Under the pieces are notes generated by a model. It was not told the origin of the DNA. It worked only from the letters and a program-made list of their open reading frames with translations, and made no database searches. The position numbers and the translations under genes were made by a program. From positions 1 through 29,868 of IMG/VR virus record IMGVR_UViG_3300028840_002098: DNA of 29,868 bases; one strand, written 5' to 3'. This document shows, one piece after another, positions 14,528 to 28,721 of this stretch. Position 1 is the stretch's first letter; every line of letters starts with the position of its first letter. Source of the stretch: a virus.

Positions 14528-15346
14528 ATGAGTTGGACAAGCCACGCATTTCCCTTAAAAGATGCTATTAGTAAGCTTTTCGAGGTTCCGGACCCGGATA
14601 CTTTTATTACCGACCCATTGGCGCGGAATAAATTCAAGGCATCGGACTACCTGACGGCCCTGCTGGATAAGAAAGTGCCAAAGCAGGGTGTAGCTGGAAT
14701 GTCGGATATCGAGAGTTACGGGCAGGACTATCTCCGCAACTATGTCACCGGCGATATGCCGGGCGGCGTGTCCGGCAGTTACGACTATTACCGGCAAATA
14801 CTCGACCAGCCCGCCGATATTACTCAATTACCGGGATACAAGGGTGTAGTTAATAGCGTTGGTGCTATGACCGATGAAGCCGTGAACAGGGCCAACAGGC
14901 GTACCCAGATGTCCGGCATGGGCGCGTCCACGCCCCAGGGCAAGGCCGTCGGCAAAGAAATTGCGCTCGGCGGCCAGAGGATGCTGTCACAATTAGCTCC
15001 TTACGCCGAAGCGGAGCGCGGGCGGCAGTTCAATGCGGCCCAGATGCTCGCCGAAATTGCACAGCTTCAGGAAATGCTGCAACAGGGCAGGCTCGGCGCC
15101 ATACAGCAATTCGGCGGCTTGCCGAGGGAACTGAATCAGGCTGAACTCAATGCCATATACAATCAGTTAATGGCCCCGTATACGACAAAGGCTCCGGTTG
15201 CGCAGGGCATAGTGGGTAACGGTGTTGAATATACGGTCCAGCAGGAACCGAGCCTTTTCCAGCAGATAGCGCCTTTGTTGATTAAAGCGGGTGAAGCGGC
15301 GGCGTCCGCAATAGCAGCAAAATCTGGAAATAAAGGAAAAAAATAG
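14528..15346 (+). CDS. Probable DNA-ejection (internal virion) protein
   Basis: 272 residues with a good ribosome site (AAGGTGAAGC). After a Pro/Asp-rich start come a Gly-rich hinge (MPGGVSGSYDYYRQILDQ) and a long Ala/Gln/Leu-rich helical region typical of ejection proteins: EAVNRANRRTQMSGMGASTP, then a GGQRMLSQLAPYAEAERGRQ helix and QLQEMLQQGRLGA. The end is an amphipathic Ala-rich helix with a Lys tail. This N-R-R-x-x-x-S-G-M-G-x-S pattern is recurrent in small proteins placed before the giant ejection protein in podoviruses (comparable to P22 gp7 or T7 gp14). It would sit in the capsid and enter the host envelope. Assignment is by context plus composition. Confidence 0.65.
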   Translation: MSWTSHAFPLKDAISKLFEVPDPDTFITDPLARNKFKASDYLTALLDKKVPKQGVAGMSDIESYGQDYLRNYVTGDMPGGVSGSYDYYRQILDQPADITQLPGYKGVVNSVGAMTDEAVNRANRRTQMSGMGASTPQGKAVGKEIALGGQRMLSQLAPYAEAERGRQFNAAQMLAEIAQLQEMLQQGRLGAIQQFGGLPRELNQAELNAIYNQLMAPYTTKAPVAQGIVGNGVEYTVQQEPSLFQQIAPLLIKAGEAAASAIAAKSGNKGKK

Positions 15347-15359
15347 ATAGGTGGTATAA

Positions 15360-16229
15360 ATGCCGGTTGTAAGAGCTGCAAAAAAAACGACAGGTCTTGA
15401 GTCCATGTCGAAGGCTTTGTCCGAGGTATTGGACACGATTACCCAGATAAAGCAATACCGGGGCCAGCAGGCGATGAATCAGGCGGCGCTGCAGGCAATG
15501 GCTGGTGCGGGGACTCGCGAAGACAAAATAGCCGCAGGACATCAGGCGGTAACTGATACGCGCGAGCAGAGTCAAACGTCACAAGGCTTGCTCCAGGACA
15601 TAATGTCTGCTTTCGATCCTCGCGTACCCTCGTATGTCGGCAATGCGCCCATTGAGGCGCTTCTTACCGGAGAAGCCGTCAGGGGAATGCTCAGACCCAC
15701 TGCAACCGTAGACCCCGAATCCGAGAGGCGCAAGAACATAGAATACTGGTCCGGGATGTATAACGACGCCGCAAAAACGCTGATGGGGTTTAAAGCCTTA
15801 TACGAAGACGACGAAAAGTATGCCGACCAGATAAAGCAGGCAGAGACGCTGATGAAGCACGCCCAACAACAGTTGCGTCAATTAGGGATAGGTGTTCCGC
15901 AATCAGCGGGCAATGTCAATCCTGGCGATGTTGATGCTGTAAGTATGGCGGACCCAAAGGTGACGACCGGCGGCAATGCGCCTGTGCTTAACGATTCGAC
16001 TCCGGTAGTGAAAGAGGAAGGTCCGCCTGTACCGGCTGATTTAGGATCGCGTTCTGTGCCGCCCCTGGCGATTCCTCTTAACGATTTGTTATTTTATCGC
16101 AATAAGATGGACCCCGCGTCGATTGAGGAATTAAAGACGATATTGGCAACGGGAGATGATGCTCTGATTGCGCGCGCATACGAGAGAATGAAACAGGTTT
16201 ATGGCGAAAACACTACAAAAACCAAATAA
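15360..16229 (+). CDS. Probable second ejection-type protein
   Basis: 289 residues with AGGTGG before the ATG. It has a Lys-rich start, a coiled-coil helix (SKALSEVLDTITQIKQYRGQ), an Ala/Gln helix (AMNQAALQAMAGAGTREDK), a Pro-rich disordered middle after about residue 200 and a helical end. The plan of flexible helices and disordered linkers fits proteins stored in the capsid and threaded through the portal. It overlaps the next gene by 29 bases. The family is not recognised; the role is inferred from position between the first candidate ejection protein and the giant one. Confidence 0.6.
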   Translation: MPVVRAAKKTTGLESMSKALSEVLDTITQIKQYRGQQAMNQAALQAMAGAGTREDKIAAGHQAVTDTREQSQTSQGLLQDIMSAFDPRVPSYVGNAPIEALLTGEAVRGMLRPTATVDPESERRKNIEYWSGMYNDAAKTLMGFKALYEDDEKYADQIKQAETLMKHAQQQLRQLGIGVPQSAGNVNPGDVDAVSMADPKVTTGGNAPVLNDSTPVVKEEGPPVPADLGSRSVPPLAIPLNDLLFYRNKMDPASIEELKTILATGDDALIARAYERMKQVYGENTTKTK

Positions 16230-19200
16230 GTCCGGCGGCATATTCGCAGATTTAATGCCGCAACAGCCGACTACCAGGCCCGGTGGTATATTTGCGGACT
16301 TATTGCAAGGCGGGGTAAACATCCTGTCACCCGGCGTGATAGAGTCCCCGGACACGGACGCGCCGATAGTGGCTTCACCTACGGTAGATCCTCAAATGCT
16401 GTCGAGAGTAAGCTCGGCGCTTGCGGAGCCGCAGGCGCAGGAACCCGGGCGCGATGTTCGGATGGGAGCGACTAAGGCAGGTCAGTACACGCCGGGCGGA
16501 TTGGCGATAGTGCCGCCCAAAGGAAAGCAACGGCCGCCGCTCGTAGAACGTACAGCCAAGCAATACGCCAACGAAGCAGCGTTGAATATGGCCGAACAAT
16601 CGCGGCCAGACGCCGGTACGGTCGAAGCGGTGACGTGGATGACATCCTCAAAAATGGAGAAAATCTTTGAGGAGATGGACGCCAATCCTGGATTATGGAA
16701 CAGGATAAAGCAAGCCCCGAAATTGTGGTGGGCTATGACGTCGAGTTATTACGGCCCTAAAGACAAGGCGCGGCAACAGGTTGCAAAAGCGGAGCTTGAA
16801 ACGAAAAGGCCGTCAGTGGCTTTTGACGTGCCACAAGCAGAAACATCAGCAGAAAAGGCTGTCGATATTGGGGCGGGCCTCGGTGCATTTATTTCTCAGA
16901 TACTCGTAGCGAGAAAGATTGTCCCTGCTGGCACTGTGCTTCCGGACGCCGTTGCATGGGAAATGGTAAATCGTGCTAACGGGGGAGTGCCTGGACAGGG
17001 CGCAATGACGAGAGGTGCATTGGGAGGTATTGGAGCCATACCAACGGGCACTGCTGCCGGCAAGATTGCAAAGACCGGCGCAGAATCCGGACTGTTTGCG
17101 GGACTGACCGGCGTTATGGGCGGCGATGCCGAAGATATGATTGTATCTGCGTTAGTTCCGGTTGCGTTTAATACATATAACTTTGCTCGCATGAGGTCGA
17201 GTCTCATAAAACAAGAAAAAGGGCTTCGTAGCGCCGCGACTCAGAAATACCAAAAAAGTCGCCGCGAGGGCATGACGGAAGTAGTTGCTCGGAAACACCT
17301 TGAAATTGATATGCGGGCCATAGATAAGGCTGTCGCAAGGGCGAAACAGACTATTTACAATACAGATGCTTTTGCCCCAGCGGGAGACAGATGGAGGGCA
17401 GAACAACGGCGATTATTGAAAATCGTTGCCACTGGCAAGCCCGGCTCAGCTAAAGTCAAACGGGCACAAGGAATACTCGATTGGATGACTGAAGCTGTCC
17501 CGCCGGGGACCGAAGCTCCTGAAGGATTAAAATTGCCAACTACCAGAGCAGGCGAAATTGCGGCATCTGCTAAAGAGGTAGTGACCAAAAAAGGAACGAA
17601 GCCCACAAAGCCGTTGTCGGCAGAACAGTTAGGGATAGAAGCTGGGCAAAGACAAGCTAAAGGGCCAGATATTTTGGTAGCTAAAGGCGTGACGCCGATG
17701 GCCGGTGTTAGCAAGAAGGCCGATATTGCCCCAGAAAGTACGCAAGCCAAAGAAGCTACCGAAGTCACCCAAGAGTCTCTGACAAAAGGGTTATCGAGGG
17801 CGTTTGGAATAGAGACGGAAACGCCGAAGGCCGATGTTACGCCGGAGAAACGCGCCGAGGCCATAAATCGAGTCAAAGACATACTTTCTAAGGATCAGTT
17901 CAAGGAACTCGACGACGACGCAAAATACGATTCGGCCCGAAAGATGCTCGGCAAATACGGCATCGAAGCCACAAAAGAGGAGATTATCGGCTCTGAGGCC
18001 CAAACGACGGAAGAGGCGGCCGCAGGCCGGGTAGTAGAAGATAAAACGACTGGCGCGGTATCTGAGGCGTCTGAGACGGGGGTTGACGAGGCTGTAGGGG
18101 AGAAGGTAGATGTAAGACGCATTGGTGGTGAACGTACTGTTAGTGATGCTGTGCGAGAATTAGGTGAAGCGCAATTAGGAATAAGTAAAGCTATCGACGC
18201 ACATGGATATGGGGGAATAACAGAAAAGGAACAACACCCCGATGTAGTAAAAGCGAGGCGTGTAATTGAACAGAAGTCTAATGCACTCTATGACGCACTC
18301 GAACCAAAATATAAGATTGGTGATATCGTAACATATCAGAGCTTTGCGCCAGCAGGAAGTTACAACGTGGCGCGGCGACAACCCGATGGCACTTTTACGG
18401 AAACGCCCAGCGAAGAAAGTACAGGCAAGCCAAAACAGGGAAAGTTGGTACAGGCACGATTTGATACATCTCAGGCGGCAGACAATATTTTGAGGATAGG
18501 AATGCCGTCAACTTTTGCATTACAGAACGTGGAAATAGAAACGTCGTCAGGCGTAAGGGAACAAATATATCCCAGCGACTTGGTTAATGGAGAAACTTTT
18601 AGCGACACAATCAGGATAAATCCTACCGAGGTTTTGCGGGATATAGTAGCAGAAAGTAAAGGTGTTTCCCAAAAAGGCGTAGTAAGCACGACAAAGAAGG
18701 CTATCAAGTCCACGCCCGCAACAAAGCCTGCTGCCGAGAAGAAACCGGCGAAAGCGAGCGACAAGGGCAAGGCCCCCGCCGAGGCAAAGCCGGGGGAGAA
18801 GAAGGGAGAGGCCAAAGAGCCGACGGTAGCCGCGACCAAGGCGGAGAAGGGAAAGGTTCACCCTGACAGCATCCGCGAGGGCCTAATCAAAAAACACGGG
18901 CAAGAAGCCTGGGACGAGGCATTTTATCGCTTAGCGGAGGAAGGCAAAAATGAACGCTTTACCGAACTGGACGAAAAACTTATTGATTTAGACCAAGCAG
19001 GTAAATTCAATTCCCCCGAAGCATTGAATCTGCGCCGTGAATACGAAACACTGATAGGCGACGAAATTAAGCTGCTGCCTGCCACAAAAAAGGAGACCCC
19101 AAGTGAAGCCAAAGAACAAGCCCGTACTGAGTCTGAGCCAGGTGCAGAGGTACACGAGCGGGAAGCAGTTGACCTTACACCCACAGGAAAACTCGACCCG

Positions 19201-22200
19201 ACAAAAGAAGAAGACGCCCTCAAGATAGTCGAACTACATCGGCAAGAGATTAGGGGCCGTGAATCTGCACACGGCGGCGTAACTGAGGAAATACCGCGAG
19301 AAGGCGGTGGTACAGAAGAAGTAGTTATGTACTCTACCGAGGAGGTAGACCAAGCCTACCGCACCGTTCAAAAGCAAGTCGATTCGCCATTGCGTGACAC
19401 TAATCTCTTCGCAATGCCCGGCAAGGAATCACAGATGGAAGCTATTGGCAAGAAGATGGAGCGTCTTGCCAAGAAGCCTACGTTCCCGGCAAAGAGGCGT
19501 GGCGTAAGTATACCGAGACCGAAGAATCTGCCGAGGGTAGCCAAAGACAGAGCCGAGATAATTAAGGCTGTTGCGATAGCAAAGGCAAGCGAGCAAAGCC
19601 GATATGCAAGCAACGGTCTATATGTGGATGGTGATAATCTCGTTGCCACCGACGGCAGAAGGCTGTTTATCGCAAAAGGCAAGTGGGGCAAAGACGGGCT
19701 TTATATGTCGCCCAACCTAAAGACGGGCAAACTTGGCAAAGCGGATACCGAGGGCCTAAAATTCCCGCCCTACAAAAATGTTATTCCCACGGATTACAGC
19801 GATTCCGACGCCATTGAGATACGGGACTTGGATGTGGTGTGGCGCAGATTGCGCAAAGCCGATATCATATCGAGCGCCAAGGACATGCCCGGCGTTCTTA
19901 TTGTATTAAACTCCGATGGTACTCTGGGTTTTGCTGCGGACGCCAGCGAGGTAGGTCATGTCGAAATCAACGTCCGCGAAGGCGCGAAGATACTCGGCGG
20001 AATGGACCCGCAATTCCTTATGGACGTACTGGCCTTTCACGCAAGACGCGGCGACAAACAGATAGAGATGTGGTTCCCGGTCCCGGACAGGCCGATACTG
20101 ACAAGGTCACCTCACGACAAGACATTAACCGTGACAATGCCGGTGAATGCGGGCGATGCGAGCGAGTCGTTGGCCGAAACAATTGACCCGGCAAAGAAAA
20201 CACAGAGGCTAAAGGCCGAAGCAGAGGCAAAGGCTAAAAAGGAAAGCGAGGCCGCAAAATCGCCGGTAGAAGCGAAGAAACCGGCGACAAAGAAGCCTCG
20301 CGGTAAAGCCGCCGGAGCCACAACAATTATTCCCGACCTTGCCGCCGAAGTCCACGGCATTGTCAGTAAAACCTACAAGAATCCGGTAAAGATGAGTAAG
20401 TCTCTTTATGGGTTGTACCGCCGAAATCTCCGGCGCGCCACAAATTACATGCGCACCCTTGGCGGCGCAGGCGAAAAGCTTGCCGACGATATTGATCAGA
20501 TTACTTATCGAGTCACCAAGAACACGAACAACGACTTGCAGGATATACGCAATGTGTTTCGGGGATTGAGTAAGAACCATAGGGAGACTGTCTGCAAGCT
20601 TATCAATGATCGCATACCAAAGAACAAGGCCCCTAAGAATCTCGTCGAACGCGCCGACAAGATTCGCGCCATCCTCGACAGGGCGATGAACGACGCGGCA
20701 GACCTTGATATGAAGCGTACTGTCAGGGGAGAGAAGATCCCCGTTGGCGGTTCCGGCAAGGCATATCCGCAGGTTCCTAATGCTAAGGGGGTTGCGTTTC
20801 TCGAAGAGGCTGCGTCCGCAGGCAAGGGGTCGGCTACCGTATTCGCGTGGGCTAACGAACAAGTCCAGGGCGGCAAATTTGAGGATGTGGATGCGGCAAT
20901 AACGGCATTGCAGCGCTTCCGTGATAATCGGATGCGGGGCCTCAATACGTACCTTGAAAGCGAACGGGTCGAGTTGCCCGAAGATATGATCGAGTGGGAC
21001 GGCATACATACCTTGCCGCACTTGATTGAGAGAAACTGGATGACCGTCGAGGGCGTCAGGCAATGGGGCAATAACTTCGGCAGGGCGCACAGCCGAATAG
21101 AGACCATCAAGAATCAGCGCGGCACCGATGACGCCTACAGAGTTAAACTGTTCATTGAAACATCATTTGGTATTAAGTCTATCGCGAGCCAGTTTTCCAA
21201 AGAAGTATCCCGGCAGGTCCGGGGCTACCAGTTCATTACCAAAGTTGGACTAAGCCCTCTGACTATTATGCGAAACATGTTCGACCGTATCGCCAAGGGT
21301 TTTACGATTTCGCCATTAAGCACGATTAAGGCTTCTATAAAGTACCCGCCGTTCATCAACCAGTTTATCAGGTCGGCGCAGAAACACGAAGACTGGATGA
21401 TTCGCAGCGGTGCAGTGTTCGGGCATGGCTCTTTGTCAGAGGGTTATGAAGCAGGTAGTGTTATTACCGAGCTTGCATCGGCACCCTTCAGCTCGTCCGA
21501 GCGGGGCAACCAGGTTTTCATAGCGATGGTCCAGTACGACAAGTTTCTCCGCGATCTCTCAAGGCTCAAGGGCAGGGACAAGGTGCTGGCGAGGCTAATG
21601 AAGCCGGCTAGTTGGATTTGGGGCAGCAGCGAAAGAGCGCTCAAATACAGAATCAGCGAAGCTGCGGGAGAAAAGGCGCTTGAAAAAGCACTGGCTGGCG
21701 AGGAAATGACTCAGGAAGAGATTGAGTTCATGCTGCATAAGACCGTTAGGGACAAGGCGTTCCCGATGGTCCTGAGTACCAAACCGATATGGTACGACAA
21801 CCACCCGTTCGTCAAAATGCTTGCGCAGTTCAAAACGTGGCCGATGTCGCAATTGAATATGATCTGGCGGGATGTGGCTAAGTACACGGTCAAGGCGCAT
21901 GACCCATCGCGGCTCATAGGCTTCCTGATAGGCACACTGATAGCAGGCGAACTCTACAATATTCTGAGGGATTTCCTGTTTGATAAGAAAGAATCGCTCC
22001 TGAGCCAATACGTCAAAGACGAAAAGGAACGCGAAGTTGCTCTTGCAATCGTCAATGATCTGTTAGACGGCGGCGTTGTCGGGATGCTGGCTGATTTCAG
22101 TTACGGTATTTACGATTGGGTGACTGGCGTCTCGGCCCGGACGGCTAAGAATACGTGGGATACCGCACTGCACATCAAAAAGAGGCCCTCGCTGACATTT

Positions 22201-22731
22201 CACGCCCTCGAACGCCTTGCGGAGAAGGAATTAACGCCGTACCGGCAGGTTAAAAGACTCGCCGATAAGGTGGACCGCAAATGGTTCAATGAAAACAACA
22301 TCAGTAAGGCCCACTACAAATGGAGGGCTGAATCATGGAAGTACCGAGAAGGAAAGAAAAATCCGACGGCAATGGATAAGGTTGGAGCTTATGCCGACCG
22401 CGTAATGATGGGAACGCAAGACTACGGCGTAGGTGAAAACACGCTTGCTTACGAACTTGCCGCCAGGCAGGTGATAGTCGGCGATGTCCGCGACGCGGCT
22501 AAGTACCTTCGGATCATTCTCAGGGACGCCGACGATAGGGCCGCCGCAATCAGGTCTATTCGTTCGAGTAAAACGTCCAGGTCGCCGTTAGGCAAGGTGG
22601 CGCAGAAGGACAGGTCGAAATTCCTAAAAGACTATTCACTTGAAAGCAAGAGAGAGGCTATGGCTGTGCAAAACAAGTACCTGCGCAACTATGAAAGGGC
22701 GTTGCGTCTCGCAGCCGCCAAGAAGAAATAG
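16201..22731 (+). CDS. Giant multidomain ejection/polyvalent protein with a DnaN-like module
   Basis: 2176 residues. Visible parts: (1) two copies of GGIFADL at residues 12-18 and 28-34; (2) a Gly/Ala-rich hydrophobic region, about 219-330; (3) a helical region with low-complexity K/A/E/P linkers (about 843-885 and 1338-1375); (4) a possible SH3/KOW-like barrel at about 700-800 (YKIGDIVTYQSF, GKLVQARFDT); (5) a sliding-clamp-like segment at about 1105-1316; (6) a helical region, about 1380-1690; (7) a C-terminal membrane-associated part with YDNHPFVKMLAQFKTWPMSQ near 1863 and a probable transmembrane helix near 1905-1925. This recalls phage 'large polyvalent proteins', which package many small domains for delivery into the host. 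It overlaps the previous gene by 29 bases; the ATG at 16201 is favoured since the GGIFADL repeats follow directly, though its ribosome site is weak. Confidence 0.85.
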   Translation: MAKTLQKPNKSGGIFADLMPQQPTTRPGGIFADLLQGGVNILSPGVIESPDTDAPIVASPTVDPQMLSRVSSALAEPQAQEPGRDVRMGATKAGQYTPGGLAIVPPKGKQRPPLVERTAKQYANEAALNMAEQSRPDAGTVEAVTWMTSSKMEKIFEEMDANPGLWNRIKQAPKLWWAMTSSYYGPKDKARQQVAKAELETKRPSVAFDVPQAETSAEKAVDIGAGLGAFISQILVARKIVPAGTVLPDAVAWEMVNRANGGVPGQGAMTRGALGGIGAIPTGTAAGKIAKTGAESGLFAGLTGVMGGDAEDMIVSALVPVAFNTYNFARMRSSLIKQEKGLRSAATQKYQKSRREGMTEVVARKHLEIDMRAIDKAVARAKQTIYNTDAFAPAGDRWRAEQRRLLKIVATGKPGSAKVKRAQGILDWMTEAVPPGTEAPEGLKLPTTRAGEIAASAKEVVTKKGTKPTKPLSAEQLGIEAGQRQAKGPDILVAKGVTPMAGVSKKADIAPESTQAKEATEVTQESLTKGLSRAFGIETETPKADVTPEKRAEAINRVKDILSKDQFKELDDDAKYDSARKMLGKYGIEATKEEIIGSEAQTTEEAAAGRVVEDKTTGAVSEASETGVDEAVGEKVDVRRIGGERTVSDAVRELGEAQLGISKAIDAHGYGGITEKEQHPDVVKARRVIEQKSNALYDALEPKYKIGDIVTYQSFAPAGSYNVARRQPDGTFTETPSEESTGKPKQGKLVQARFDTSQAADNILRIGMPSTFALQNVEIETSSGVREQIYPSDLVNGETFSDTIRINPTEVLRDIVAESKGVSQKGVVSTTKKAIKSTPATKPAAEKKPAKASDKGKAPAEAKPGEKKGEAKEPTVAATKAEKGKVHPDSIREGLIKKHGQEAWDEAFYRLAEEGKNERFTELDEKLIDLDQAGKFNSPEALNLRREYETLIGDEIKLLPATKKETPSEAKEQARTESEPGAEVHEREAVDLTPTGKLDPTKEEDALKIVELHRQEIRGRESAHGGVTEEIPREGGGTEEVVMYSTEEVDQAYRTVQKQVDSPLRDTNLFAMPGKESQMEAIGKKMERLAKKPTFPAKRRGVSIPRPKNLPRVAKDRAEIIKAVAIAKASEQSRYASNGLYVDGDNLVATDGRRLFIAKGKWGKDGLYMSPNLKTGKLGKADTEGLKFPPYKNVIPTDYSDSDAIEIRDLDVVWRRLRKADIISSAKDMPGVLIVLNSDGTLGFAADASEVGHVEINVREGAKILGGMDPQFLMDVLAFHARRGDKQIEMWFPVPDRPILTRSPHDKTLTVTMPVNAGDASESLAETIDPAKKTQRLKAEAEAKAKKESEAAKSPVEAKKPATKKPRGKAAGATTIIPDLAAEVHGIVSKTYKNPVKMSKSLYGLYRRNLRRATNYMRTLGGAGEKLADDIDQITYRVTKNTNNDLQDIRNVFRGLSKNHRETVCKLINDRIPKNKAPKNLVERADKIRAILDRAMNDAADLDMKRTVRGEKIPVGGSGKAYPQVPNAKGVAFLEEAASAGKGSATVFAWANEQVQGGKFEDVDAAITALQRFRDNRMRGLNTYLESERVELPEDMIEWDGIHTLPHLIERNWMTVEGVRQWGNNFGRAHSRIETIKNQRGTDDAYRVKLFIETSFGIKSIASQFSKEVSRQVRGYQFITKVGLSPLTIMRNMFDRIAKGFTISPLSTIKASIKYPPFINQFIRSAQKHEDWMIRSGAVFGHGSLSEGYEAGSVITELASAPFSSSERGNQVFIAMVQYDKFLRDLSRLKGRDKVLARLMKPASWIWGSSERALKYRISEAAGEKALEKALAGEEMTQEEIEFMLHKTVRDKAFPMVLSTKPIWYDNHPFVKMLAQFKTWPMSQLNMIWRDVAKYTVKAHDPSRLIGFLIGTLIAGELYNILRDFLFDKKESLLSQYVKDEKEREVALAIVNDLLDGGVVGMLADFSYGIYDWVTGVSARTAKNTWDTALHIKKRPSLTFHALERLAEKELTPYRQVKRLADKVDRKWFNENNISKAHYKWRAESWKYREGKKNPTAMDKVGAYADRVMMGTQDYGVGENTLAYELAARQVIVGDVRDAAKYLRIILRDADDRAAAIRSIRSSKTSRSPLGKVAQKDRSKFLKDYSLESKREAMAVQNKYLRNYERALRLAAAKKK
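19513..20148 (+). other. DnaN-like (sliding clamp) domain within the giant protein
   Basis: Residues ~1105-1316 reproduce in order the landmarks of the second half of a bacterial beta clamp: helix AEIIKAVAIAKASEQSRYAS then GLYVDGDNLVATDGRRLFIA (E. coli has VATDGHRLAV at the equivalent strand turn, ATDGRRL at 1149-1155 here); FPPYKNVIP (1188-1196; E. coli FPDYRRVLP); MDPQFLMDVL (1268-1277; E. coli NVSYVLDVL); and LTVTMPVN near 1309-1316 (E. coli YVVMPMRL). This looks like part of domain II plus a complete domain III. I see no first domain, so it would not by itself make a normal three-domain ring. Confidence 0.85.
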
Positions 22732-22739
22732 GTGATTAC

Positions 22740-25700
22740 ATGAAACACATTGAGAAGATTGTAATAATAATGGCCGTGATTGCATTGTTGTTGGTTGCCG
22801 ATTACGTATCCGGCCAGCCGGTTACGGGGTCGTTTGTTGCTTTGGTAATACGGATACTCGAAAACGACAGCACCAACGAGAACAATGCGATTCCCTTCAT
22901 AGCCGACGGCGATACCGACGGCGGCACTGTTCGCCTGGAAATGGACAGCGATTTTACGTACAATCCCTCCACGGGGACGGCAACAGCCGGAGAGTTCAAG
23001 GGCGGCGGCAGCAACCTTACCGATATTCGCGGCACTGACGGAGCCTTCGGTACGAGTTGGGACGGCGATACGCACGCGCCGGAAAAAGACGACGTCTACG
23101 ATGTCATGCGAGAGCAGCGGTTTTCGGTTAAGGACCACGGCGCCACCGGCGACGGCACAACGGACGATAGTACGGCGATACAGGCGGCATGTACTGCTGC
23201 TGGGGGCGGAGATGGTACGTCACAGGGCATAGTCTTCATTCCCGAAGGCGTTTATCATTGTGATAGTTCCATTACCGTTCCCGGCAGGGTGAGCATGAAG
23301 GGCGTGGGTTATGGTTCAATCCTCAAACCCGACCTGGACGGTTCGACTGATTTTCTCATTCAAGGCGACCAATCGAGCTCTCAGGGGTGTGTTATATGGA
23401 AAGACTTTGCCATATTAGCAGACAAGCAAACCGATGACGGCGGGGCTGTGAATTCGTGCCGAAATGCAATGGTGATAACTATGATGCATGAAAGCCGTTA
23501 TGGTCCTATTACCATTTTGTGTGACGCCGAAGAATACGGCCTTTATGTGATTGGCTGTATTCAGACTTATTTCGATATTAACATAGGGACAATATCGACA
23601 TCCGCAAGCTATGCTCGTCCCGACAATGGCATCTACGTGCGCAACTGTGACAACGGCACGGCCGACCCGTTTACTGGGGTTGTTGACGCCGGAAGCGATA
23701 CCCAAAACAACCGCCTTGAATTTCACTTAGCACTGTCTGGGATTAACGATACGACCGCCGGGTATGCAATGAAGTGGGACGAAACATTCGGCGGCGGTAC
23801 TGCCGGCGGAATGAATTCTAAGGTGATAGGCCGGATAGAAGGCAATGCTAATGAGTATGGTTTTTACGGTGAAGGTCTTAACACGGTTGATTTCGAGAAC
23901 GTATATACCGAAGCTGGGGGAACCGATAACAACAAGTTTTATTTGAAAACCTGCGAGAATATCAATGCCATGAATTGCAGGTTTGGGCGGGGACTTTACA
24001 TTGAAGATTCTCAGGGCATTACCTTGGGGCCTGGAAATGAATACGCGGATATAGATATTGAATCGGACGTGTTCGACGTTCATTTTCTCGGTTCCAGTAA
24101 GATGTTGGCCAGTCATACTTATGTCCAAATAGGCGACAGCAACGAGATTGATATTGACGCCGCCGGTGTTCGGTCGAGCGGGATAATGTTCTTTGATTCG
24201 CTTAACAATCGGGGTGTATCTTTTGGCGGGGCGGATACAATCAACCTTTTCACCAATTCAACGTTTGAGGATTGGAATTCCGACAGACCGCAGGGGTGGG
24301 GCAAGGACGCATCGGCGACGTGGACTCAGTGCGGAACGGGACTTACGGACACAACTAACCATTGGGACACTTATTCCGTGAAATATAGTGCCCAAGGCCA
24401 AACAAGTTCCTATACCGTCCCATCAGGCGTCTTGTCAATGCTACAGGGCGACCTTGCGACATTCTCAATCTGGTGTAAATTTGCTTCCGGGCAAAGCCCT
24501 ACGGCGCGTTCCCAGATTCAGGTTTTTCGTACAATAACAAGCGGCAATGAATCAGACACGATGTTAATCTATTCCTCCGAAGACGATACATGGCATCGAA
24601 AAACCGTAACATTTCACGTACCTACGGATTGCACACAGATAGATATAAAAATCGAGACTCGCGGTGCTGCCGGCGTAGACGGAGATTTGTACTTAGCCGA
24701 ACCATATCTGGCTAAGGGTGTCGTTGCCCCCGCAGGCGTAGTGAATGAAATTGACAGTCAGACAAGAAAGTGGCTGGCGGAGAATGATGTCGGCATAGCC
24801 ACCACCGACCCCAACCACCCCTTAGATGTGGACGGCACGGTACAGGCCGAGAAGTATCTGCACAGAACTGTAGCCGTTACGGCCTCTGCCGATGATACGG
24901 ACGTTGACGACGCCGATATTGTCACAGTGGACACAAGCGGCGGGGCAGTTACATTGGGCGGGTTCGCCAACGGCGATGCGGGGCAATTGCTTTACGTCTG
25001 CGTGGTTGACTCCACGGCGGCTACTACGCTCGAACACGCCGAAGGTGCGGGCAGTCAGGATGTGTACCTGTCTTCGGGGGACGATGAAACTGTGGCTATT
25101 GGGGCATACGGAGGCTGGCTGTTACAGTACAACGGGTCCAATTGGTACGAGGTAACAGCCGGGGGAGCGGCGGGTGTCGAAGATGACGTATATGCCGCCG
25201 GTTGGAATGGAGACCAAACCAACGCGCCTTCTCAGAATGCGGTATACGACTATCTCGTCCAATTCGACGCCGACGCTGATGGCGATTTCACGGATGAGGG
25301 TTGGTTCCCCGCCGGTGGGGCGGTTGCATGGGACGATATTACAAATCCGGACGCCGACGACACAATCCAATACACGGGATATGAAATCACTCTGAGCAGC
25401 ACGCTCGACGAAGCTGCGCACACAGCACTTACCCTGGACCACACCGATGCCGACCTTGCCAATGCGACCACAATATTCGGCATTCAGGGCGTAGATAACG
25501 ATTCTGCCAACCTGACGTTCTTCCATATCGAAGATGATTCCGGGGGTACGCCAGATACTATTTTCAAAGTGGATACAGGTGTTCACGTCGGGGCCGACGA
25601 TGAAATCGCCCACCTAACCGTTCACGACGCCGGAACCATTGTCCTGTACGATGATTCCGACGATACCAGCGTGACACTGGGGCCGGTTGGCGACGGCGGG

Positions 25701-28700
25701 ACCGTTCTGGGAGTAACGGGGACAATAAACGCCACGGCCTTACAAGTGGGCGGCAGTGCGGTTTACTACGCTGGTGGTACGGATGTTGCCGATGCCGATA
25801 TGGTAGATGCCCACTCCCACGCAGCCGATTCCATTGACGCTATTACAGAGATAGCAGCGGCCCTGAAAAGCGGCTCGGATACAACGTTAATCACCGGCAC
25901 AAAAGCGGCGAACGGTCAACTGGCCATGTTCAATGCAGACGGAGATTTGGTCGATGCCTCTAAAGCTGCTTCGGCAGTAGGATCCACCGCCTATGACGAT
26001 ATTGGAGACCCGGATGCGGCGGGCAGTATAAGCTTTGATGCGGCAGAAGGCGGTACGTACACAAGCTCTGATGCCGAGTGGGTAGGCATAACCATTTCTA
26101 ACACTGTTGCCGACAATACCGGTGATTCAGAACTCTTAACCCTTGCCTTCACGGACGATGGCGACACGAATATGCACTATCTGATAATGTCCGACGCCGC
26201 CGGTACACAGCAACTTGAGTTCATTCAGAACACAGCCGACGTACAAGTAACAAGCGCCGGAGACCTGAAGTTTATTGCGGGCGGCGGCGATTTCGACTTT
26301 GCCGACGACAACATAAATACGACAGGAATTGCCACTTTTGGCAGGTATGCAACATTTTCATACCAGAATGACACTGCCAACGTTTCTCCGTTTATAAGGC
26401 TAAATAGAGCATTGGCCGGAGGTGCCGATGTTGAAAACGACGATGAACTTGGCGATATTCGTTTTTATGGTATGAGCAATGGCGGATACCAACTGGGTGC
26501 TAAAATTGTCGCAGTGACGGATGGTGCTGTCGGCGGTGCAACGGACATGCCGTCTGAATTACAATTTCTCACGTCAGCCGATGGTTCTGCAACACCTACA
26601 CTTGCGATGTCGATCAGTGCTGCTCAAGTAGTTACTTTTGCCAACGACTTGGCGGACTCAGAGATTGCTGACGACATTACCTGTACCAATTACCTCGATC
26701 TGGCAACGTATGATTCCGGTTCAGACGGCGGGGTAGACGACGTAGACGCCGAAGTGGTGGCCCTGAACGAGTTAAGCGATGTGACGATTGGCAGTGCCGA
26801 CGATTGTGATATTTTAGTTTATCAGGCCACTCCCGCAACGGCATGGATAGACGTTGCTATGAGCGGGGATGCCACGATTTCCAATACCGGGGTGGTTACG
26901 GTTGACTGGACGAATCTTACAGAAGGCGAGCTATCGACGGGCGTGGTGGTCAGCGACGATATTAAGGACGATACGATAGAGTCTGACGACTATGCTGCTG
27001 GCTCGATAGACGATGAACATATCGCCGACGATACGATCCAGGAACCCGCGCTGAATGTCACAAACGCAGGCGCTGAAGGCATAGACAATTACGTGCTATC
27101 CTACAATCATGCCGGGACTAACTTTACTTGGGTAGAAATGACAGGTGGGGCCAACTATGTTACCAACGACGCAGACGATACAATGGCGGGGGATTTGACT
27201 CTCGATGACGACGATGTTGGGACGGCCCTGACGGTTCGTGCCGACGCTGCGAATACAGGGGCCAGCATAGGGTTACTTATCACTACTGACGACGACGACA
27301 ATGCCAATTTCGACCCGTTCGAGATACGCGACGATTCAGGCTCAGGCAATGACCTGTTGTTTTTTATAGACCACACAGGAGCGGTGACTACTGGCGAGTG
27401 GAAAGGCACGGCTATAGCCGATACTTACGTTCCCGATGATATTACAATTGACCTTGCCTCCACGGCCACGGTTGCCACTACGGTAACGATTACCGACAAT
27501 GAGGACACTGCCGAGAATAACCCGTTGGTGTTCGTGGCCGGTGGTGATCTTGACGGCGGCGATTTGGGCCTCGAAACCGATGGAACGACGTATTACACCC
27601 CATCGACCGGAGTTATCACCGCCACGGGCTTTGCAGGAGCGTTGACGGGCAACGTGACGGGCGACTGTACTGGCAGCTCAGGCACTTGTACGGGTGCGGC
27701 TGACGTAGGAACTCACGTTACCGTCACTGACAACGAGGACCAGGACGAAGAGAATGAGGTTGCGTTTGTAGAGGACGCAAGTGGACCGGGCAATGTTGGA
27801 TTGGAGTCTGACAGCGGGTTTACGTATAATCCCTCGACTGGGACCTTGACGGCGGCTGCATTTGCAGGGGCTTTGACGGGTGCGGTTACAGGCAACGCAG
27901 ATACATGCACGACCGCCAGTGCTGGCGACGCGGCGGTAGACTTCTTCGGAGCCGGTGTTGACGCCGTTACCGACGCCACGACCTGTACCGACATCGAAGG
28001 TACAAAGCTTTCAATTACAGACGGCACGCTCAATTGCACCGAAACCGATTCAGTCGTTGGTGCGGTATCGGGTATCGTCAAGGCCGACGGCGGGGGCAAT
28101 ATTTCGGCGGCGGTAGCAAATACTGATTACGAGCCCGCATTGACGGACGAGGCCAGTCTGTACACGACACTTTCAGATGTAACTCAGTTTTACGAGGCCG
28201 GAGATGAAGACAGTATTGCGGCGGCGATAGCGGAAGGTGAATTGGCCGACTCCATAGTCATCACAGATGACATCAAGGACGGCACGGTAGCGGCCGCGGA
28301 TTTGAACGCTACGTTGGATTTGTCCAGTAAGACAATCACATTACCTGTAAGGCCGAAGACGCAGGAACATCACATGACCTTCAATCTGTGGAATCCTAAT
28401 GCTATGTATGACAACGATACCCAAGTTTGTGTATGGCCCACTACACCAGCGGCCCTAACCATCACGAAAATAACGGTAACATGTGACGCAGACCCGGACA
28501 CCGAGCTCGAGTTTGATTTGAAGTGGGCCGATGCGTTTATAGGCTTGGCGAACGCCGCCGTAATAGACGAGATAGACACCACCAGTGGTACAACGTCGAT
28601 TGCGGCTGGTTTTGACGACGCCGATGTTGCTTCTGGAAAGTGTATCTATATTGAGTTTCAAGCGGATCCCGACTCAGGGATAAAGCAAGTATGTGTTGAT

Positions 28701-28721
28701 GTGACATTTGATTGGGACTAA
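22740..28721 (+). CDS. Exported giant tailspike/fibre with pectate-lyase-3 domain
   Basis: 1993 residues. Residues 1-25 form a signal peptide (YVSG before Gln26). A DNE-type repeat (about 37-92) precedes the FSVKDHGATGDGTTDDSTAI motif near 123-142, which together with GIVFIPEGVYHCDSS is the recognisable start of a Pectate_lyase_3 right-handed beta-helix, as in phage tailspikes that cut surface polysaccharide (to about residue 480). Residues ~501-660 (NSTFEDWNSDRPQGWG onward) resemble a carbohydrate-binding jelly-roll (CBM4/9-like). Further fibre modules follow, two more DNE repeats (1582-1640, 1660-1720), and a two-Cys beta-rich end domain (~1875-1993). It is strikingly Asp-rich. The start overlaps nothing and lies eight bases after the previous stop. 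Catalytic residues cannot be assigned by eye. Confidence 0.85.
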   Translation: MKHIEKIVIIMAVIALLLVADYVSGQPVTGSFVALVIRILENDSTNENNAIPFIADGDTDGGTVRLEMDSDFTYNPSTGTATAGEFKGGGSNLTDIRGTDGAFGTSWDGDTHAPEKDDVYDVMREQRFSVKDHGATGDGTTDDSTAIQAACTAAGGGDGTSQGIVFIPEGVYHCDSSITVPGRVSMKGVGYGSILKPDLDGSTDFLIQGDQSSSQGCVIWKDFAILADKQTDDGGAVNSCRNAMVITMMHESRYGPITILCDAEEYGLYVIGCIQTYFDINIGTISTSASYARPDNGIYVRNCDNGTADPFTGVVDAGSDTQNNRLEFHLALSGINDTTAGYAMKWDETFGGGTAGGMNSKVIGRIEGNANEYGFYGEGLNTVDFENVYTEAGGTDNNKFYLKTCENINAMNCRFGRGLYIEDSQGITLGPGNEYADIDIESDVFDVHFLGSSKMLASHTYVQIGDSNEIDIDAAGVRSSGIMFFDSLNNRGVSFGGADTINLFTNSTFEDWNSDRPQGWGKDASATWTQCGTGLTDTTNHWDTYSVKYSAQGQTSSYTVPSGVLSMLQGDLATFSIWCKFASGQSPTARSQIQVFRTITSGNESDTMLIYSSEDDTWHRKTVTFHVPTDCTQIDIKIETRGAAGVDGDLYLAEPYLAKGVVAPAGVVNEIDSQTRKWLAENDVGIATTDPNHPLDVDGTVQAEKYLHRTVAVTASADDTDVDDADIVTVDTSGGAVTLGGFANGDAGQLLYVCVVDSTAATTLEHAEGAGSQDVYLSSGDDETVAIGAYGGWLLQYNGSNWYEVTAGGAAGVEDDVYAAGWNGDQTNAPSQNAVYDYLVQFDADADGDFTDEGWFPAGGAVAWDDITNPDADDTIQYTGYEITLSSTLDEAAHTALTLDHTDADLANATTIFGIQGVDNDSANLTFFHIEDDSGGTPDTIFKVDTGVHVGADDEIAHLTVHDAGTIVLYDDSDDTSVTLGPVGDGGTVLGVTGTINATALQVGGSAVYYAGGTDVADADMVDAHSHAADSIDAITEIAAALKSGSDTTLITGTKAANGQLAMFNADGDLVDASKAASAVGSTAYDDIGDPDAAGSISFDAAEGGTYTSSDAEWVGITISNTVADNTGDSELLTLAFTDDGDTNMHYLIMSDAAGTQQLEFIQNTADVQVTSAGDLKFIAGGGDFDFADDNINTTGIATFGRYATFSYQNDTANVSPFIRLNRALAGGADVENDDELGDIRFYGMSNGGYQLGAKIVAVTDGAVGGATDMPSELQFLTSADGSATPTLAMSISAAQVVTFANDLADSEIADDITCTNYLDLATYDSGSDGGVDDVDAEVVALNELSDVTIGSADDCDILVYQATPATAWIDVAMSGDATISNTGVVTVDWTNLTEGELSTGVVVSDDIKDDTIESDDYAAGSIDDEHIADDTIQEPALNVTNAGAEGIDNYVLSYNHAGTNFTWVEMTGGANYVTNDADDTMAGDLTLDDDDVGTALTVRADAANTGASIGLLITTDDDDNANFDPFEIRDDSGSGNDLLFFIDHTGAVTTGEWKGTAIADTYVPDDITIDLASTATVATTVTITDNEDTAENNPLVFVAGGDLDGGDLGLETDGTTYYTPSTGVITATGFAGALTGNVTGDCTGSSGTCTGAADVGTHVTVTDNEDQDEENEVAFVEDASGPGNVGLESDSGFTYNPSTGTLTAAAFAGALTGAVTGNADTCTTASAGDAAVDFFGAGVDAVTDATTCTDIEGTKLSITDGTLNCTETDSVVGAVSGIVKADGGGNISAAVANTDYEPALTDEASLYTTLSDVTQFYEAGDEDSIAAAIAEGELADSIVITDDIKDGTVAAADLNATLDLSSKTITLPVRPKTQEHHMTFNLWNPNAMYDNDTQVCVWPTTPAALTITKITVTCDADPDTELEFDLKWADAFIGLANAAVIDEIDTTSGTTSIAAGFDDADVASGKCIYIEFQADPDSGIKQVCVDVTFDWD
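22848..23015 (+). repeat. First copy of DNE/NPSTG fibre repeat
   Basis: Residues ~37-92 of the tailspike (ENDSTNENN, FIADGDTDGG, TYNPSTGTATAGEF) match two far downstream copies at 27483-27665 and 27717-27900, separated by about 1,500 residues that hold the beta-helix and binding modules. Confidence 0.8.
27483..27900 (+). repeat. Second and third copies of DNE/NPSTG fibre repeat
   Basis: Two adjacent ~60-residue units begin TITDNEDTAENN and TVTDNEDQDEEN, and each contains a GxxGLExD...STG.(I/L)TA.xFAGALTG core. Copy three shares FTYNPSTGT with the first copy near the N-terminus. Both end in Cys/Thr-rich stretches (VTGDCTGSSGTCTG, NADTCTTA). Confidence 0.85.

Follow-up and report, generated by a model that had tools for sequence, protein, structure and literature searches.

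A bacterial sliding-clamp-like cassette carried by giant polyvalent-type phage proteins

In a giant protein encoded among the virion genes of a P22-like podovirus we found a module, residues 1114-1316, that is homologous to domains II and III of the bacterial sliding clamp DnaN; at the sequence level its clamp-derived origin is settled. The window, i.e. the whole stretch of DNA analysed (29,868 nucleotides, IMG/VR record IMGVR_UViG_3300028840_002098), encodes the virion half of the phage, and the features discussed here are collected in Table 1. The module forms the C-terminal part of a conserved cassette of about 320 residues (994-1316), which opens with PTGxLDPT (994) and closes with MPVN (1316). 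Four giant proteins, each from a separate IMG/VR record (the window, L017, L040 and L042), contain this cassette, in at least three different backbones. As the best explanation, to which we give close to but less than an even chance, we propose that the cassette would enter the cell with the phage DNA and offer a docking site of clamp origin to those host proteins that normally bind the clamp; that it is packaged and injected, that it binds peptides and which way it acts are all putative parts of this proposal.

Table 1. Positions of the giant ORF, its neighbouring genes and the parts of the clamp cassette in the window
Feature	Position	Strand	Remarks
Upstream gene of the three-gene block	14528..15346	+	Homologous genes occupy this place in L040 and L042
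Second gene of the three-gene block	15360..16229	+	Weak homologue in L040
Giant ORF with clamp cassette, 2176 aa	16201..22731	+	Closes the three-gene block that separates the hub/nozzle-type genes from the tailspike
Pre-clamp segment, residues 994-1113 (120 residues)	19180..19539	+	No known family
LFAMPGKE motif	19405..19428	+	Invariant in 4/4 cassettes; in or beside low-confidence stretch
Sliding-clamp-like module, residues 1114-1316	19540..20148	+	DnaN domain II (first half), reduced IIb and complete domain III
ATDGRRL, peptide-pocket loop	19645..19665	+	E. coli T172-L177
GKWGKDG	19678..19698	+	Cassette-specific, invariant in four members
FPPYKNVIP, junction into domain III	19762..19788	+	E. 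coli P242, V247
LTVTMPVN, C-terminal strand	20125..20148	+	Pocket residues V360, M362, P363
C-terminal part of giant, residues 1377-2176	20329..22728	+	70% identical to L040 giant

The first-pass annotation of this DNA had pointed to five DnaN landmarks in a row, and all of them (SRYASNGLYV, ATDGRRL, FPPYKNVIP, MDPQFLMDVL and LTVTMPVN) indeed lie in frame and in this order within ORF 16201-22731, whose reading frame is uninterrupted over 2176 residues. The segment alone, when compared with Pfam, matched DNA_pol3_beta_3 (profile positions 2-119 of 121, E 1.5e-4), preceded in the correct order by DNA_pol3_beta_2 (8-57 of 116, E 0.018). Since these scores were below the curated cut-offs, relatives were needed. 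The segment also matched PHROG 947, ‘DNA polymerase processivity factor’ (E 5e-10), and the best six matches of a single-sequence PDB search were all DnaN (top E 0.008). When a profile of the four modules was used instead, the best 38 PDB matches were all beta clamps (top E 6e-7), and comparison with a DnaN profile by hhalign gave E 4e-18 over 191 columns. The four-module query contained no DnaN sequence, so the PDB profile and hhalign evidence is not circular. The PHROG 947, DnaN profile and PDB profile results rule out a chance match of motifs and, together with the Pfam matches, bear out the sliding-clamp-like domain proposed earlier. Identity of the modules to DnaN is low, with about 75-80% of positions differing. 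In the codon comparison of the clamp part, third-position differences (0.62-0.64) exceeded second-position differences (0.18-0.26), indicating that selection keeps the protein sequence.

The AlphaFold2 model of the module (pLDDT 80.4, pTM 0.67) had the strand-helix order expected for a clamp; its input alignment consisted of the modules and 15 DnaN rows, the latter a possible source of bias. The model made from the single sequence was of low quality (pLDDT 42.5) and we treated it as a weak hint only. Foldseek comparison of the model with the PDB gave 202 matches at E<=0.001, and the 50 listed were all DnaN clamps (best 4.3e-10). Among the best profile matches and the listed structural matches, no fold other than that of DnaN came up. 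Among predicted viral structures the best match (E 2e-9) was a 1394-residue ‘Large polyvalent protein-associated domain-containing protein’, BFVD A0A6J7W9M3, listed in UniProt as a polyvalent protein from an uncultured Caudovirales phage; this model-based match suggests that more distant cassette members exist. The next matches were phage clamps, some of them of 211-235 residues, without room for three domains.

With DnaN (PF00712/PF02767/PF02768) the module shares a homologous fold, the order of motifs and a hydrophobic peptide pocket, including the ATDG[H/R]RL loop, the FP..xxVxP junction and the MP[VM] C-terminal strand. The alignment begins at domain II, which confirms the earlier remark that domain I is missing. 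The extent of the unit had been given less exactly: apart from domain I, the second half of domain II (IIb) is largely gone, being cut to about 30 residues with most of its secondary structure lost, and the conserved unit starts not at 19513 but at 19180, about 110 residues upstream. The module differs from DnaN further in the loss of R365 (N/K in the modules) and in being embedded in a 2176-aa protein of the virion block with its own conserved pre-segment.

The residues of the hydrophobic client-peptide pocket (subsite I) were kept in the modules. T172, G174, R176, P242, M362 and P363 (E. coli numbering) were identical in all four, and L177, V247, V360 and Y323 showed conservative replacements only (L/M177, V/I247, V/I360). 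Subsite II was changed: Y154 to A/G, R246 to N/D and V344 to D/E. Several of the listed residues have been described as pocket residues (PMC7261172). Identity to E. coli was higher in the pocket (10/20) than at the other aligned positions (32/178; Fisher p 0.002). The other residues on the list were included as presumed members of the pocket. Among the four modules themselves, invariance in the pocket (9/20) showed no significant excess over the rest (62/178, p 0.25), and folding may be the reason why some pocket residues persist.

The pre-clamp segment is 46-49% identical to its counterparts in L040, L017 and L042 and gave no significant match in the PDB, to clamps or otherwise. AlphaFold2 predicted a helix-strand-strand-helix arrangement followed by a low-confidence stretch, and judging from the model this stretch, in or beside which the LFAMPGKE motif lies, is probably flexible. 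LFAMPGKE may serve for docking or mark a site of cleavage. It was rejected as a regular clamp-binding motif, as the glutamine that opens such motifs is absent in 4/4 cassettes (D or G instead).

The genes of the window run from portal through capsid, tail/nozzle-type proteins, two genes of about 270-290 aa and the giant to the tailspike. The portal (PF16510, E 1e-48) and the capsid (PF13252) are of P22 type, and the place of the giant is equivalent to the locus which we take to be that of the ejection proteins in P22. The annotated setting of the clamp holds in that the giant protein is encoded in a virion gene block rather than being a replication gene product. Comparison of the whole giant with Pfam gave zero matches; the clamp was its only recognisable known domain, and a second one was looked for and not found. 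The tailspike (22740-28721, 1993 aa) carries a pectate-lyase-like domain and a CBM_4_9 carbohydrate-binding domain.

The relatives were obtained by scanning IMG/VR with an alignment of the segment and four DnaN proteins, followed by two further rounds. The first round gave L017, with 51% identity over the whole module, listed beside ordinary DnaN proteins, and the second and third gave L040 and L042. The presence of the segment in these giants (2776, 2276 and 2344 aa in L017, L040 and L042, respectively) refutes its absence in all homologues. The part common to the window giant and those of L017 and L042 is the cassette only, at about 44-51% identity, and profile comparison detected no homology between the C-terminal part of the window giant and the L017 and L042 giants. 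In L002, which has a related portal (36%), the same locus encodes a 1696-residue giant without the module. Residues 122-540 of the L040 giant are homologous to residues 97-488 of the L002 giant (28%, E 4e-30), and no similarity was found between their C-terminal parts, which, on the sequences compared, is another sign of mosaicism. In the bootstraps the window and L040 were the closest cassette pair in just 1.6%, whereas the four-point test favoured this pair in 65%; as the two conflict, we do not claim a history of the cassette different from that of the C-terminal backbone, and the mosaic reading is drawn from the non-homologous flanks and not from distances. The four independent records with intact frames, together with selection at the protein level, rule out an assembly chimera.

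Several searches gave no relative: viral and genome contigs queried with the window segment by itself, viral contigs queried with the C-terminal part alone, the phage collection queried with the whole giant, and genome contigs queried with a two-sequence alignment. A scan for the GKWGKDG pattern in DNA returned only L040 and L042 among the true members and nothing new. Genome contigs and the phage and plasmid collections yielded no cassette member: the weak phage matches were unannotated contigs, at least two of which encode a full-length DnaN homologue, and tblastn against plasmids gave dnaN genes only (about 26%, E 0.04-0.5). Within the collections searched, the cassette is therefore rare. 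When the related records were searched with PHROG 947 and PF02768, this missed modules that were found later, so that their negative results exclude ordinary clamps only.

The companions of the cassette point to the class of proteins to which the giants may belong. In L017, a PBECR3 nuclease domain lies directly behind the cassette (L017:8697-9500, E 6e-19) and the giant contains a HEIGH zincin motif. In L042, a single chain (L042:7421-14452) comprises a class I methyltransferase (E 8e-23), the clamp cassette, a HEIGH zincin motif and LPD38 (E 6e-37). PBECR, zincin and LPD38 domains are marks of polyvalent proteins, which are predicted to be injected with the phage DNA (Iyer et al. 2017, PMC5512222). 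The cassette giants resemble these proteins in their very large size, mosaic makeup and encoding among virion genes. The large multidomain makeup with disparate domains was seen in L017 and L042, whereas the window giant shows the clamp only, and its suggested polyvalent nature rests on these relatives. The words clamp, DnaN and processivity are absent from the text of the 2017 survey (PMC5512222), and in our literature search no paper combined ‘polyvalent proteins’ with ‘DnaN’. The clamp-derived domain, a clamp without domain I, appears to be an addition to the list of polyvalent domains.

The first-pass annotation had considered that the module might bind incoming DNA or dock host clamp partners. 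We favour docking because the hydrophobic peptide pocket is kept, and regard DNA binding as the weaker branch because the parts lining the DNA, domain I and most of IIb, are gone; this combination of losses and retention argues for peptide docking rather than a DNA ring. According to this proposal, residues 994-1316 stem from the bacterial beta sliding clamp and were inserted as a cassette in giant polyvalent-type proteins. The cassette has lost what makes the DNA-encircling dimer and keeps the groove between domains II and III, where in clamps polymerases, the clamp loader and repair proteins dock via clamp-binding peptides. The giants are probably packaged in the virion and enter the cell along with the phage genome. 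Carried in on them, the cassette would most likely mimic a clamp and capture host clamp clients, so that replication or repair enzymes would either be brought to the entering phage DNA or be taken away from the host clamp. The fuller version, in which a docking cassette without the DNA-encircling part moves as a unit among injected polyvalent proteins and serves as a decoy or a recruiting platform for host clamp clients, is tentative, and we judge the balance to lie somewhat against it.

A rather unlikely alternative is that the clamp fold was exapted and is retained only for a structural role in an ejection protein, either as a scaffold of compact shape or for oligomerisation, and binds no host clamp partner. 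The location in the virion gene block, the changes in subsite II and R365, and a pocket no more invariant than the rest of the four modules all fit such a role. However, the hydrophobic residues of subsite I persisted despite the large divergence from DnaN, and a purely structural part would be less expected to move between unrelated backbones with its own pre-segment. That copies of the module, perhaps with the pre-segment as a substitute for the missing half domain, form a ring or arc on the phage DNA, as a processivity or anti-degradation factor, we consider improbable. In its favour, the model is matched well (target TM 0.62-0.72) by separate phage-encoded clamps of 211-235 aa that lack domain I, one of which bears the name PolIII beta-like processivity factor; a search for domain I (PF00712) in L017, L040, L042 and L002 found no domain-I clamp in these four related records. 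On the other hand, the module lacks domain I, which supplies half of the dimer interface, as well as most of IIb, which faces the DNA, and the 2176-aa carrier would be an awkward ring subunit unless cut. A still slimmer chance can be given to an intramolecular switch, in which LFAMPGKE would dock in the module's own pocket, and the protein would thereby stay inactive, or compact, inside the virion up to its processing or entry. The invariance of this motif and its position just before the clamp, in or beside the low-confidence stretch, would agree with it, as would the resemblance of its NLF/SLF part to the end of the Pol V clamp-binding motif QLNLF; yet the opening glutamine is lacking, the motif could equally be a cleavage site, and docking cannot be judged from a stretch modelled at low confidence. 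Finally, the chance capture of a dnaN fragment that is now drifting is suggested by the absence of domain I and half of domain II and by the scores under the Pfam cut-offs, but its likelihood is negligible in view of intact frames in four independent records and the codon evidence for selection.

Injected phage proteins are a poorly known first strike on host defence and replication. If the docking proposal is true, a clamp mimic would provide a direct handle on the central docking hub of the host at entry, and otherwise anonymous giant proteins would gain a concrete, testable putative activity, the capture of clamp-binding peptides. The list of polyvalent-protein domains would be extended by a clamp-derived one, and the cassette suggests that the peptide-docking half of a clamp can be kept without the DNA ring.

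Among known systems, Gp168 (PDB 7evp, the complex of Gp168 with the beta clamp) also represents a phage interaction with the host clamp system, but Gp168 binds DnaN whereas the module is itself clamp-derived. Another parallel is offered by the mini-clamps of PHROG 3007 (Burkholderia phage BcepC6B gp31, Serratia phage Eta_0010, Salmonella phage seszw), which are likewise phage-encoded and lack domain I. These proteins of about 170-190 aa have a TDGH motif and, in most, an MPM end. In these proteins domain II is whole and the first half of domain III is missing, whereas the cassette loses IIb and keeps all of III; moreover, they are small separate proteins, several adjoining replication or recombination genes, while the cassette sits in giants.

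In many phage records PHROG 3007 bears the label ‘RusA-like Holliday junction resolvase’, although its members are domain-I-less mini sliding clamps (examples at L008:1183-1722, L009:1579-2094, L011:1483-2019 and L012:1441-2019). We did not count this name as evidence for a resolvase, and from the sequences the label looks wrong. In the case of BcepC6B gp31, the in-frame DNA upstream of the gene (L009:1495-1578) encodes the first clamp half (QDIRYYLNG), and gp31 looks to have been annotated from a late start.
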